Position numbers and translations under genes: made by a program. A DNA stretch of 64,000 nt from an uncultured Opitutia bacterium (GTDB taxonomy: Bacteria; Verrucomicrobiota; Verrucomicrobiia; Opitutales; Opitutaceae). The notes below the pieces were generated by a model. It had not been told where the DNA came from. It searched no databases and saw only the letters and a list, made by a program, of their open reading frames with translations. Positions 47,509-51,337 of this stretch are shown here, one piece after another. Every line of letters begins with the position of its first letter. Within the stretch, counting starts at the first letter, position 1. The stretch is from positions 1 through 64,000 of the forward strand of contig CAIKHO010000042.1 of NCBI GenBank assembly GCA_903827245.1, written 5' to 3'.

Positions 47509-48762
47509 TCAGTCCGCCTGCACGACGTAACCGCGCAGGTATTCGCTCTCCATCATGGTCACGAGCACCGGATGATCCGGGGGCTGGTGGCAGAATTCCT
47601 TCACCCGCACCTTGCGCTTAGCGTCGGCCGCGGCCTCGGCCAGCACGCCGCGCAGTTCGGCATCCTGCATGTGGTGTGAACAGGTGTAGGTGGCCAGCAC
47701 ACCGCCGGGCGCCAGCCGCTGGAGGGCGCGCAAATTGATTTCCTTATAGCCGCGCAGCGCTCCATCGAGCGCGCTTTTCGATTTCGCGAACGGTGGCGGG
47801 TCGAGGATGATGACGTCCCACAACGGGTCGCCTGCGCGCGAGGCGTCATTGAGCCAGTCAAAGACGTTGGCGACGGCAAACTCGGCCTTCACGCCGTTCC
47901 TTTCCGCGTTGCGCCGCGCCGCGGCGATGGCGTCCTCCGCGCTGTCGAGCCCGAGGACCTGCGTCGCGCCGGCCCGCGCCGCATGCAGCGCGAACGGGCC
48001 TTGGTTGCAAAACGCGTCGAGCACCCGCTTTCCCGCGCAGTATTTCGCGACCAGGGGATGCTGCGCGCGCTGGTCGAGGTAAAACCCCGTCTTCTGTCCG
48101 CCCTGCAGGTCGAGCCAGTACTCAAACCCGTCAATCCGCACCCACCGCGGCTCCCACGCCCGCCCGGAGCGCGTATGCACTTCCATCGGCAGGCCCTCGA
48201 GCCGACGGATCGGCGCATCGTTCCGGAAAATGATTTCCGCCGGCTTCACCACCTCGGCCAGCACGTCGCCCACCAGAACCGATCGCTTCTCCATCGCCGC
48301 CGTCTGGATCTGCACCACCAGCGTCTCGCCAAACTGGTCCACCACGAGGCCAGGCAGGTCATCCGACTCGGACCAGACGAGCCGTCGGCAGGCGCCGGGA
48401 GTAATTGGAAATTGGGAGTTGGGAATTGGTTCCGAACTCTGCGCCACTCGCGTGTCCGCGGTGCCGCCCCCCTCGCCCCTCGCCCCTTCGCGGCGTGCGA
48501 CGGCCCGCTCAATCGCCCCGCGCAGATAGGCCGCGTTGAGCGCCGCACGCTCACGGCTGAAGCGCCGCCACACGATCTGCGACCTCGAGTTGTAAATGCC
48601 TGTGCCTAGGAAGCGGTCCGCCCGGTCGCGGCACTCGACCACCTCGCCGTCATACTCGGCCGGCAGCAGGGCCTCGACCTCATTGGCGAACACCCACGGA
48701 TGTCCCGCGAGCACTCGCGGCTTGGCGTTGGGTTTAAGCTTAAGCGATGGAGCCGGCGACAT
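47509..48762 (-). CDS. rlmI: 23S rRNA methyltransferase RlmI family, with in-frame repeat insertion
   Basis: A 417-residue RlmI-like enzyme, a class I SAM-dependent rRNA m5C methyltransferase. N-terminal PUA-like domain (LKLKPNAKPRVLAGHPWVFANEV), middle domain, then the SAM domain with VLDAFCNQGPFALHAARAGA, LGLDSAEDAIAAARRN and the catalytic ILDPPPFAKSKSAL plus YTCSHHM. Residues about 92-121 (REGARGEGGGTADTRVAQSS... to ...TPG) are an unusual low-complexity stretch absent from the family, matching the repeat-like DNA at 48395-48500. Overlaps 23 bp with the small membrane-protein frame. Confidence 0.88.
   Translation of the reverse strand: MSPAPSLKLKPNAKPRVLAGHPWVFANEVEALLPAEYDGEVVECRDRADRFLGTGIYNSRSQIVWRRFSRERAALNAAYLRGAIERAVARREGARGEGGGTADTRVAQSSEPIPNSQFPITPGACRRLVWSESDDLPGLVVDQFGETLVVQIQTAAMEKRSVLVGDVLAEVVKPAEIIFRNDAPIRRLEGLPMEVHTRSGRAWEPRWVRIDGFEYWLDLQGGQKTGFYLDQRAQHPLVAKYCAGKRVLDAFCNQGPFALHAARAGATQVLGLDSAEDAIAAARRNAERNGVKAEFAVANVFDWLNDASRAGDPLWDVIILDPPPFAKSKSALDGALRGYKEINLRALQRLAPGGVLATYTCSHHMQDAELRGVLAEAAADAKRKVRVKEFCHQPPDHPVLVTMMESEYLRGYVVQAD
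48395..48500. repeat. Repeat-like insertion inside rlmI (in frame)
   Basis: Two low-complexity blocks sit inside the rlmI coding frame: GGAAATTGGGAGTTGGGAAT (48406-48425), the widespread gggaattggg repeat, and GCCCCCCTCGCCCCTCGCCC (48472-48491). The C-rich block resembles those inside prfC and hemF and before ileS. It does not disturb the frame. Confidence 0.75.
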
Positions 48763-48949: not shown

Positions 48950-49496
48950 GCGAACACAGTACCAAATGAGGCGTGGTTGCGGTATCAGGGTTTCTACGTG
49001 ATCACATCTAGGTGAATCACGTAGACACCCTGCCGCTTCATTCCGCGATTGGATCCACAAGATATTTTTTAGCAGCACCTTAGATAGATGCAGCGGACGG
49101 CAAATGTCTCGTGAACCAGACGTTCTCCCATATCACGGGTCCGCCGGTGACACTTTCGACAATTGCCCGCCGGCAGCACTCGCGGCAGAGTTCGAAGAAA
49201 GAGCCGGATGGCCTTCAAGTCCATATCATTCATATCCCCAAAGTTTCGCGGCATAACCGGCAAACTTGAGAGGACGACGCATGATACCTTTTCGACTTTT
49301 CACCACCGCATCGGCGCCAAGGATTTTTTCATGGAATTCCTGCAACGCAGCCGGCGGTTGCAGGAGCGGCTTTACGCCGCGGTTGCCTGATGCGGCGCGC
49401 AGACGGCTGCGGCGGTAGGCCGCTTCCAGTGCCGCACGTCACCAAATAATCTTCCCCTTTGCCCCTTTGCGCCTTTGCGTGAGGCTCCTATTTTTC
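48950..49496. other. 547-bp gap with inverted repeat and degenerate REP
   Basis: No convincing gene. At 48986-49032 lies a 17-bp inverted repeat, CAGGGTTTCTACGTGAT pairing with ATCACGTAGACACCCTG (one mismatch), around a 13-bp spacer. A degenerate REP, GCAGGAGCGGCTTTACGCCGC, is at 49360-49380, and CTTTGCGCCTTTGCGTGAGG-like repeat at about 49455-49485 precedes prfC. Two short overlapping frames of 64-75 codons exist but have no supporting features. Confidence 0.6.
48986..49032. promoter_or_regulatory. 17-bp inverted repeat, possible operator or hairpin
   Basis: CAGGGTTTCTACGTGAT and ATCACGTAGACACCCTG pair with one mismatch across a 13-bp spacer. It is in AT-richer intergenic DNA upstream of the small membrane protein at 48740-48949 (reverse strand). 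A related core TTTCTACGTAG lies upstream of trmL (30310-30320), so this may be a regulator site used at more than one gene. Confidence 0.45.
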
Positions 49497-51209
49497 ATGT
49501 CGCCCGCCGCTGAAATCGCCCGCCGCCGCACCTTCGCGATCATTTCCCATCCCGACGCGGGCAAGACCACGCTCACGGAGAAGTTCCTGCTGTATGGCAA
49601 CGCCATCCACCTCGCGGGCGCCGTCACCGCCCGCAAGAACCAGCGCGCCACCGCTTCCGACTGGATGGAACTCGAGAAGCAACGCGGCATTTCCATCAGC
49701 TCGACCGTCCTTCAGTTCGATTACGCCGGGTACGCCGTCAACTTGCTCGATACTCCCGGCCACAAGGACTTCTCCGAGGACACCTACCGCGTGCTCACGG
49801 CAGTCGACGCCGTGGTGATGGTGATCGACGCCGCGAAGGGCATCGAGGCCCAGACCCGCAAGCTCTTCGAGGTCTGCCGCCGCCGCGGCGTCCCGATCTT
49901 CACGTTCATGAACAAGTGCGACCGGCCCACGCTCAATGCGTTCGCGCTGCTCGACGAACTCGAGAGCGTGCTCGGCCTGCAGTCCTCGCCCGTGATTTGG
50001 CCGCTCGGCAACGGCCCCTCCTTCCGCGGCGTGTTCGATCGCCGCTCCCAAGAGGTCCACCTTTTCGAGCGCGTCCCCGGCGGCAAATATCAGGCACCCG
50101 TCAATGTCAGCTCGCTCGATGATCCGGTCGTGCGGAACAAGCTCGACGAATACACTTATCGCGAGGTCACCGAGCAGCTCGCGATGCTCGACGGCGCCGG
50201 CCATCCCTTCGACCTCGCCGCGGTCCGCGCCGGCCAGCAGACCCCGGTTTACTTCGGCAGCGCCGTGAACAACTTCGGCATCCAGCTCCTCCTCGACGGC
50301 TTCCTCCACGACTCCGTCCCGCCCCAGCCCCATCGGAACGCGGCGGCCGTTGGAGAGGCGACCTCCCGGTCGCCTGGACGCGACCGGGAGGTCGCGGTTC
50401 CAGCCGGCAGCTCTTTTCCTCGCCCCTCGCCCCTCACGCTCGCCCCTCCGATCATACCCGTCGGGTACGACCGGTTTTCCGCCTTCGTCTTCAAGATCCA
50501 GGCCAACATGGATCCGAAGCACCGCGACCGCATCGCTTTCGTGCGCATCTGCTCGGGCAAGTTCACGCGCGACATGATGGTCACGCACCAGCGCACGGGT
50601 AAAACCGTCCGCCTTTCCTCGTCCCACAAGCTCTTCGGCCAGGAGCGCGAAACCGTTGACGAGGCCTGGCCCGGCGACGTCATCGGGCTTGTCGGCCACA
50701 GCGAATTCGGCATCGGCGACACGCTCACCGAGGACAAGTCGATCGTGTACGACGAAATCCCCCGCTTCCCGCCCGAGGTCTTCACTTTCATCAGCAATCC
50801 GAATCCCTCCGATGCGAAGAAATTCCGCGCCGGCCTGGAGCAGCTTTTGCAGGAGGGCGTCGTGCAGTCCATCACCCTGCGCGCAGGCATGACGACCTCC
50901 ACGCTCCTCGCGGCCGTCGGCACGCTCCAGTTCGAGGTCGTCCAGTTCCGCCTTGAGAGCGAATATGGCGCCGCCTCCCGGCTCGACCCGGTCAACTGGA
51001 CGATCATGAAGTGGCTGGCGCCCGCGGATCCCGCGGCCAAGCTGCCCGACCCATCCCGTTTCATCATCGCCAGCGGCGTCGCCTTCGGCACCGACAAGCT
51101 CGGCCAGCCCGTCGGCCTGTTTCCCAACGACTGGACACTGCGCTACTTCGTGGAAAAAAATCCCGAGGTAAAACTGCACGACCTGCCTCTCGAACAAACC
51201 GAACGCTGA
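49497..51209 (+). CDS. prfC: Peptide chain release factor 3, with in-frame palindromic insertion
   Basis: A 570-residue RF3 (usual about 530). GTPase motifs: SHPDAGKTTLTE (G1), LLDTPGHKDFSED (G3), FMNKCDR (G4). Then VYFGSAVNNFGIQLLLDGF, VFKIQANMDPKHRDRIAFVR, and the C-terminal LQFEVVQFRLESEY core. RF3 recycles RF1/RF2 from the ribosome. About residues 280-322 (DNA about 50334-50465) form an extra stretch in place of the short linker before the FKIQANMDP domain, holding a perfect inverted repeat. The frame stays open. Start ATG 49497; the first MRLC... codons belong to a repeat-like segment. Confidence 0.95.
   Translation: MSPAAEIARRRTFAIISHPDAGKTTLTEKFLLYGNAIHLAGAVTARKNQRATASDWMELEKQRGISISSTVLQFDYAGYAVNLLDTPGHKDFSEDTYRVLTAVDAVVMVIDAAKGIEAQTRKLFEVCRRRGVPIFTFMNKCDRPTLNAFALLDELESVLGLQSSPVIWPLGNGPSFRGVFDRRSQEVHLFERVPGGKYQAPVNVSSLDDPVVRNKLDEYTYREVTEQLAMLDGAGHPFDLAAVRAGQQTPVYFGSAVNNFGIQLLLDGFLHDSVPPQPHRNAAAVGEATSRSPGRDREVAVPAGSSFPRPSPLTLAPPIIPVGYDRFSAFVFKIQANMDPKHRDRIAFVRICSGKFTRDMMVTHQRTGKTVRLSSSHKLFGQERETVDEAWPGDVIGLVGHSEFGIGDTLTEDKSIVYDEIPRFPPEVFTFISNPNPSDAKKFRAGLEQLLQEGVVQSITLRAGMTTSTLLAAVGTLQFEVVQFRLESEYGAASRLDPVNWTIMKWLAPADPAAKLPDPSRFIIASGVAFGTDKLGQPVGLFPNDWTLRYFVEKNPEVKLHDLPLEQTER
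50358..50395. repeat. Perfect 16-bp inverted repeat inside prfC
   Basis: GCGACCTCCCGGTCGC and its exact reverse complement GCGACCGGGAGGTCGC, with CTGGAC between (38 bp). It is translated in frame as EATSRSPGRDREVAV. Further downstream, about 50413-50455, is a C-rich CTCGCCCCTCGCCCCTCACG block. Both lie between conserved domains of RF3. Confidence 0.95.
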
Positions 51210-51263
51210 TCGCCGGCGCTTGGCGGGCAGCCGTGATTTCCCCGTGAAATGATGCAGAAAAAA

Positions 51264-51337
51264 TTTGGCCACTGATTGCACCGATAGCACAAATATTGGT
51301 CTTCAATCTGTGCCCATCGGTGCCATCAGTGGCCAAA
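51264..51337. repeat. Long palindromic repeat (TTTGGCCACTGATTG type)
   Basis: Left arm TTTGGCCACTGATTGCACCG (from 51264) pairs with CGGTGCCATCAGTGGCCAAA (to 51337), 21 of 22 bases, with about 30 bp between. It is a second copy of the family at 1451-1650 and lies between prfC and dacA. It can form a strong hairpin in RNA. Confidence 0.9.

Follow-up and report, generated by a model that had tools for sequence, protein, structure and literature searches.

Short palindromic repeats that lie within bacterial reading frames are known from several systems. In the available text of Di Nocera et al. 2013 (PMC3733652), intragenic REPs are reported from Opitutus terrae and other bacteria; the GTAG REPs described there are hairpin monomers, often dimers, that are dispersed and mostly intergenic, with some lying within ORFs in which they code for 20 to 30 residues. 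The same text characterizes a CGTC REP superfamily by its CGTC/TGTC/CCTC tag, an 8- to 9-bp stem, and AT at stem positions one and two, and it equates R. conorii RPE-6 and RPE-4 with CGTC repeats. REPINs, as presented in the accessible part of PMC8049555, are REP doublets that form hairpins, the inverted partners being separated by a short spacer that varies, and singlets also occur. Rickettsia palindromic elements (RPEs), according to the consulted portions of PMC2229807 and PMC3767692, are palindromic repeats carried in frame by unrelated conserved proteins, where they are tolerated; the same portions raise possible hotspots, as for biotin ligase in Rickettsia and Wolbachia. The Coxiella QMITE, which we compare by its description in part of PMC5896051, is palindromic and sometimes in frame in an ORF but measures 150 to 400 bp. 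The initial annotation of the DNA studied here knew of no such description in Verrucomicrobia, a statement overtaken by the intragenic REPs of O. terrae in the available text of PMC3733652. That article was the only relevant one in the open-licence literature on REPINs in Verrucomicrobia and on intragenic REPs with RAYT or Opitutus, and RF3 is absent among the genes named in those parts of its main text that were available. In open-licence titles and abstract openings, we found no report of a palindromic insert in RF3 or of palindromic repeats in Opitutaceae.

The element considered here lies in prfC of an uncultured Opitutia bacterium (the host), within the 64,000-nt stretch of DNA that was analyzed (the window). 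The gene (positions 49497 to 51209, plus strand) encodes peptide chain release factor 3 (RF3; 570 aa) and was identified from its ORF and its RF3 family match. Its open frame runs from a TTG at 49467 to 51209, with the ATG at 49497 taken as the start. The full open frame and a match of 681 bits to the NCBIfam RF3 model, split into two stretches that flank the linker, bear out the earlier statement that prfC is intact. The insert sits between the GTP_EFTU domain match (residues 9 to 268) and the domain II match (residues 327 to 412). The nearest named RF3 relatives are metagenome-assembled genomes (MAGs) labelled Verrucomicrobia, Opitutae, or Opitutaceae (the last being L069). An antisense frame of 600 aa over prfC (window positions 49488 to 51290, minus strand) is probably a G+C effect.

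Between the two domains lies a REP pair, a REPIN-type element of 53 nt (50350 to 50402, plus strand), which together with G50349 forms 18 codons of RF3, residues 285 to 302 (VGEATSRSPGRDREVAVP). By comparison with the monomer consensus, the left REP monomer (50352 to 50375, plus strand) has the tag GGAG, an 8-bp stem (AGGCGACC/GGTCGCCT), and the loop TCCC, and the right one (50378 to 50401, minus strand) has the tag GGAA, the stem CCGCGACC/GGTCGCGT with its outermost pair broken, and the same loop. The 16-bp arms at 50358 to 50373 and 50380 to 50395 are perfect reverse complements, as the initial annotation had claimed, and are nested in a 23-nt, 87% inverted repeat at 50351 to 50402. Each half is a small hairpin with the tag GG[AG]G, a stem of 8 bp, and a TCCC loop; being inverted, the halves can together form one long hairpin. 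The RF3 copy contains no stop codon in any frame. Its arms are the same in DNA and unrelated as peptides, which fits a young insertion. The window holds no copy other than that in prfC; allowing three mismatches gave no surplus over shuffled sequence.

Elsewhere in the host genome, the element is abundant. Its 16-nt core has 55 exact matches in the 3.55-Mb assembly (0 for the reversed control) and 86 with at most one mismatch (3 for the control), so the palindrome is not a chance occurrence. An element model built from 33 aligned two-arm copies, from which the RF3 copy was excluded, gave that copy a score of 66.1 bits (E 6.7e-10) in a search of the host genome. The same search returned 119 matches that represent at least 65 distinct loci, a lower bound since 150 of 6745 first-look candidates were scored by the RNA model. 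One-mismatch cores at three loci (L057, L058, and L060) lie inside open frames, carry no tag, and were not counted as elements. The suspected repeat is therefore a dispersed family, and an old loop without dispersed kin is ruled out by the core counts. It is scarcely credible that an old RF3 loop happens to contain a palindrome or that MAG assembly produced an artefact: sister genomes do have linkers of equal length and the assembly is fragmented (91 contigs), but the exact cores are many, further in-frame copies exist, and the spacer of the RF3 copy is unique among the 34 listed pairs, so that it is no simple chimeric join to one of them.

The 71 monomers examined, which were selected by their core, share the layout GNTGG[AG]G followed by an 8-bp stem, NNGCGAC[CG], with a loop that is nearly always TCCC. 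The tag adjoining the stem is GGAG in 49, GGGG in 14, and something else in 8; GTAG, GYAG, GYRG, GTRG, GTMG, and GTGG do not occur. The two outermost stem pairs covary (CA/TG in 19 monomers, CG/CG in 15, and AC/GT in 15), and the remaining 22 are spread over twelve minor combinations, some of them mismatched; the outermost pair is C-G in 39/71 and A-T in 21/71. Inverted two-monomer copies number 34 in the host genome, with spacers of 6 to 15 nt in a search that allowed 4 to 16, and single-arm copies also occur (e.g., L010 and L017). Motifs of the TTTCAAAC / GTTTGAAA kind adjoin some copies (L004, L011, L013, L019, L020, L028, L045, and L051), which look as if they had been inserted into a larger palindrome; in a strict search, 8 of 57 elements had the outer TTTCAAAC palindrome as a neighbor, one of them on both sides.

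Across 200 genomes of the family, the exact core is concentrated in one genus: 55 matches in the host, 91 in its genus-mate G061, none in its genus-mate G017 (98% complete), and 0 to 2 in each of the other 197. The gap in G017 reflects either a recent burst in the host and G061 or a loss. A looser pattern, GGRGNNGCGACN6GTCGC, was present in 50 of 120 genomes, led by G003 (135 matches), G061 (105), and the host (90), followed by seven genomes with 19 to 27; reversed controls gave 0 to 2 per genome, so genomes with one or two matches are uninformative. This wide distribution points to a wider family, of which the CTCCCG variant has expanded in this genus.

RF3 structure was predicted with AlphaFold2 from 36 RF3 sequences. 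The predicted fold matches known RF3 structures (7siq, E 2.5e-58). When the host protein is aligned with the 7siq chain, 44 of its residues (280 to 323), set between two aligned stretches, lie opposite 10 residues of that chain. Mean pLDDT of the model was 80.2, falling below 50 at residues 284 to 315 and also at 41 to 68, outside the insert. The insert region is thus predicted to be disordered, in agreement with the proposal of a tolerated loop. Since the RF3 copy has no stops in any frame, a frame-keeping insertion or replacement would only lengthen or rewrite a flexible loop and so be tolerated; its effect on RF3 would be near-neutral.

We compared the linker with those of relatives, searching 80 family genomes for RF3, of which 68 showed one by the listed matches. 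We analyzed 66 of these loci (all but those of G011 and G056), and 65 linkers could be read. Both the median and the commonest length is 36 residues; the host linker has 58, and 12/65 have at least 57. Two near relatives (L148 and L149) and a genus-mate (L177) have linkers of 58, 57, and 57 residues without a REP pair. The initial estimate of about 40 extra residues is therefore roughly right relative to distant RF3s such as 7siq (44 versus 10) and wrong relative to the family median (22 extra) or the near relatives (0 to 1). The palindrome is absent from the RF3 of the nearest relatives, and its likeness lies dispersed in the host genome, the reverse of what is expected of an old loop shared by all close relatives and resembling no other DNA. 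The RF3 of G061, the other core-rich genome (72% complete), was searched for and not found.

What some of the long linkers of relatives carry instead are heptamer arms, in L148 and L177 for example CAAGTAACAAGT and ACTTGTTACTTG, and in some linkers the arms are in inverted orientation. The host linker begins (50332 to 50349, plus strand) much like relatives without the REP pair (host ATCGGAACGCGGCGGCCG, L148 CACCGGAACGCGGCGGCG). Downstream of the pair is a C-rich, heptamer-like (CTCGCCC) tract (50418 to 50448, plus strand), with a period of 7, 76% matches, and 8% indels. The C-rich block had been read as a piece of the repeat, but CTCGCCCC is a distinct low-copy period-7 tract (in the host genome, its 17-mer matches exactly at 2 sites and with one mismatch at 4), and some palindrome-free relatives carry other heptamers at that place. 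Compared with L148 and L177, the host has a C-rich tract only where the right-hand heptamer arm lies, and the REP pair occupies the place of the left arm; by position, the tract appears akin to the relatives' right arm. Stringent lag-7 arrays were detected in 6/65 linkers (L148, L152, L154, L170, L178, and L188), compared with 0/387 control segments of equal length, taken from these loci, at any lag from 3 to 14; the L177 linker passes only at lag 14, and the host C-rich tract fails the stringent lag-7 test. Either the left heptamer arm was replaced or the REP pair was inserted before a deletion. Because the RF3 and MnmA loops of near relatives are similar in length and different in sequence, rather than clean empty sites, replacement is as likely as plain insertion, and we infer that the REP pair replaced the left heptamer arm. 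Heptamer tracts also occur elsewhere in the window: a PUA and SAM-methyltransferase protein (47509 to 48762, minus strand), presumably RlmI-like, has two in frame between its domains (48403 to 48429 and 48469 to 48487; units AATTGGG and CCCCTCG), much as in the prfC linker. We found no report of heptanucleotide repeats in Opitut* in the open-licence literature.

Could the hairpin have been kept for a role in RNA, slowing the ribosome as it passes from the GTPase domain to domain II or shielding the mRNA? Folding of the linker RNA gives a perfect stem of 16 bp at -66.7 kcal/mol (z -2.42; 3/200 shuffles equal it), and some sister linkers have inverted heptamer arms. However, the commonest linker is 36 residues long, those of that length that were read have no such repeat, and sequences vary among genera. 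We consider an RNA role improbable.

Open frames over the copies were inspected at all 65 host loci, and genic calls were based on these frames, on G+C at third codon positions, and on family matches rather than on a gene finder. Besides prfC, four internal in-frame copies were recognized by reading, each with family support or a homologous partner: in PDH E2 between the lipoyl and E3-binding domains (L007), in MnmA (L043), in a DEAD_2 helicase that we take to be DinG-like (L194), and in a TIR-domain protein after the TIR domain (L202). Two further in-frame copies lie near N termini, in a DegT-type aminotransferase (L034) and in L048, and may be untranslated. Inspection of other loci with open frames, such as L003, L010, L053, L055, L197, L200, L203, L204, and L206, did not lead to a genic call; by count, the remaining host copies are intergenic or undecided. 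The helicase of the genus-mate G017 is about 23 residues shorter at the site of the copy, and some other relatives are intermediate. At the MnmA loop, both genus-mates, G017 and G061, have a similar length and other sequence, and most of the more distant relatives have short loops. Residues ~636 to 670 of the L194 helicase match other places in the host genome and in G017 and may be a further translated repeat.

These copies bear on whether the inserted peptide was recruited for a function in the protein. In 7/7 genic copies, the second arm is read in one frame, as DREVA, DREIA, or DGDVA (D-[RG]-[ED]-[VI]-A), with the other frames open too; were the frames equally likely, the probability of such agreement would be (1/3)^6 over all seven, or (1/3)^4 over the internal five, all copies being preselected as genic. 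Against recruitment, predicted order is low, the peptide is unconserved among genera, and the arms are still perfectly complementary in DNA. True domestication is thus slightly less probable even than an RNA role. Of the mobile element domestication proposed in the initial annotation, the mobile-type dispersed repeat stands; domestication as a useful function does not, tolerance being sufficient.

The same loops also carry repeats in other genera. With the element model at E <0.01, 2/66 RF3 loci were detected, those of the host and of G024 (the next had E >=0.29). The G024 copy (58.8 bits, E 1.6e-9) carries the loop variant particular to that genome, which has 20 pattern matches with this copy included. 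The RF3 of G023 (L150) contains GTAGTCGGGGTCCCTGACCCCGG, a GTAG REP. The core of this repeat occurs at 20 sites in G023, 24 in the host, and 70 in G003 (controls, 0), and in G003 the repeat flanks a Y1 transposase (L305). The RF3 linker therefore bears REPs in three genera. We examined G023 and G024 because their RF3 linkers looked odd and inspected the remaining 19 sites in each. By reading, 7/20 GTAG REP sites in G023 are in frame: in RF3, MnmA, a TIR-domain protein, an ABC-F protein, L348 (which matches a dipeptidase model below cut-off), and RecD2 twice, the last being two in-frame copies of one GTAG REP (L351/L352). In G024, 4/20 are in frame: in RF3, CarB, L329 (which matches glycosyltransferase models below cut-off), and RsmA. 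In both MnmA and the TIR-domain protein, the same loop or linker bears repeats in the host and in G023, and these are unrelated REPs. As G023 was picked for its RF3, only these two proteins count as independent sharing. The GTAG repeat as written has stops in the other forward frames, so the constancy of its frame is trivial, unlike that of the GG[AG]G family.

One explanation for this recurrence is that unrelated repeats preferentially land or are retained in a few loops, the RF3 linker among them, because these are exposed, long, and rich in hairpin or heptamer DNA. The REPs of three genera in the RF3 linker, the MnmA loop and TIR-protein linker struck in both the host and G023, and the restriction of lag-7 arrays to linkers (6/65 versus 0/387 control segments) argue for this. 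However, tolerance with survivor bias predicts the same pattern, G023 and G024 were chosen for odd RF3 linkers, and RF3 is the only one of four genic sites in G024 to recur in the host. We regard such a preference as possible, though doubtful. Marginally better placed, but still tentative, is the proposal that the RF3 linker, the MnmA loop, and the TIR-protein linker serve as lasting landing pads, in which GG[AG]G REP pairs, GTAG REPs, and heptamer arrays succeed one another by in-frame insertion and replacement. If that is true, conserved proteins include a segment of translated mobile DNA that keeps turning over.

No match to the Pfam Y1_Tnp model was found in the host assembly. Such matches were present in 107 of 120 family genomes, with two in G061 and one in G017. 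Among 32 matches in nine relatives, eight of which have at least 19 pattern matches, the element model was applied at 30 Y1_Tnp loci and hit none, so the idea that the element sits beside the relatives' Y1 transposases was set aside. One of the two G061 loci (L291) holds a core-like 16-mer with 2 mismatches, and a permissive scan, run with no control, placed GTAG or GTGG hairpins at about a dozen of the 30. The host genome itself has 24 sites of the GTAG-type REP core CGGGGTCNNNGACCCC, yet no Y1 transposase was found there. The transposase may have been lost after the expansion, or it may act in trans; both are possible, and we infer that a Y1 (RAYT-like) transposase, which the assembly no longer contains, mobilized the element in trans. 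REPINs persist in E. coli genomes that lack RAYT, according to the accessible part of PMC8049555, so a missing Y1 lowers the case for REPIN membership but does not exclude it.

Taken together, these results make it highly probable that the segment is a REP-pair (REPIN-like) copy of a family expanded in this genus, which lies in the RF3 linker that joins the GTPase domain to domain II and is tolerated there. The RF3 insertion itself is real, probably recent, and tolerated. The family appears to be a non-Rickettsia counterpart of RPEs that offers recent copies, sister genomes lacking them, and orthologous loops struck by different repeats. It makes a long-standing question testable, namely whether certain loops are preferentially reached or insertions are merely tolerated there, and RF3 and MnmA are both open to assay in standard laboratory strains.

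The resemblance to RPEs suggested by the initial annotation holds for layout, in that the repeat is dispersed, in frame, and tolerated in loops, as RPEs are in the consulted portions of PMC2229807 and PMC3767692; in the host it lies in several unrelated conserved genes (prfC, PDH E2, mnmA, the helicase, and the TIR-domain protein). Kinship does not follow, as the two are likened by description and not by sequence, and the host element is 53 nt long versus 105 to 146 nt for RPEs in the available part of PMC2229807. Like the GTAG REPs in the available text of PMC3733652, the host family consists of dispersed hairpin monomers, often paired, some within ORFs, and O. terrae belongs to Opitutaceae, probably the family of the host too. 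Its tag, GG[AG]G, differs from GTAG and the variants listed there and from CGTC, so that 0/71 monomers have the tag of the GTAG superfamily. Unlike the REPs of that text, it has no adjacent transposase that we could find, and unlike the REPINs described as RAYT-mobilized in the accessible part of PMC8049555, it has no RAYT found in the host. An in-frame REP insertion is thus a known kind of event, probably in this very family. What we take to be new is the GG[AG]G-tagged family, the insertion in RF3, and the reuse of protein loops by different repeats, although the first two could already appear in the figures or additional files of PMC3733652, which lie beyond the text available. With many dispersed hairpin monomers, inverted pairs with short variable spacers, and singlets, and with a cognate RAYT (Y1) transposase the one REPIN hallmark not found in the host, the layout of the element is that of a REPIN with an unusual tag.
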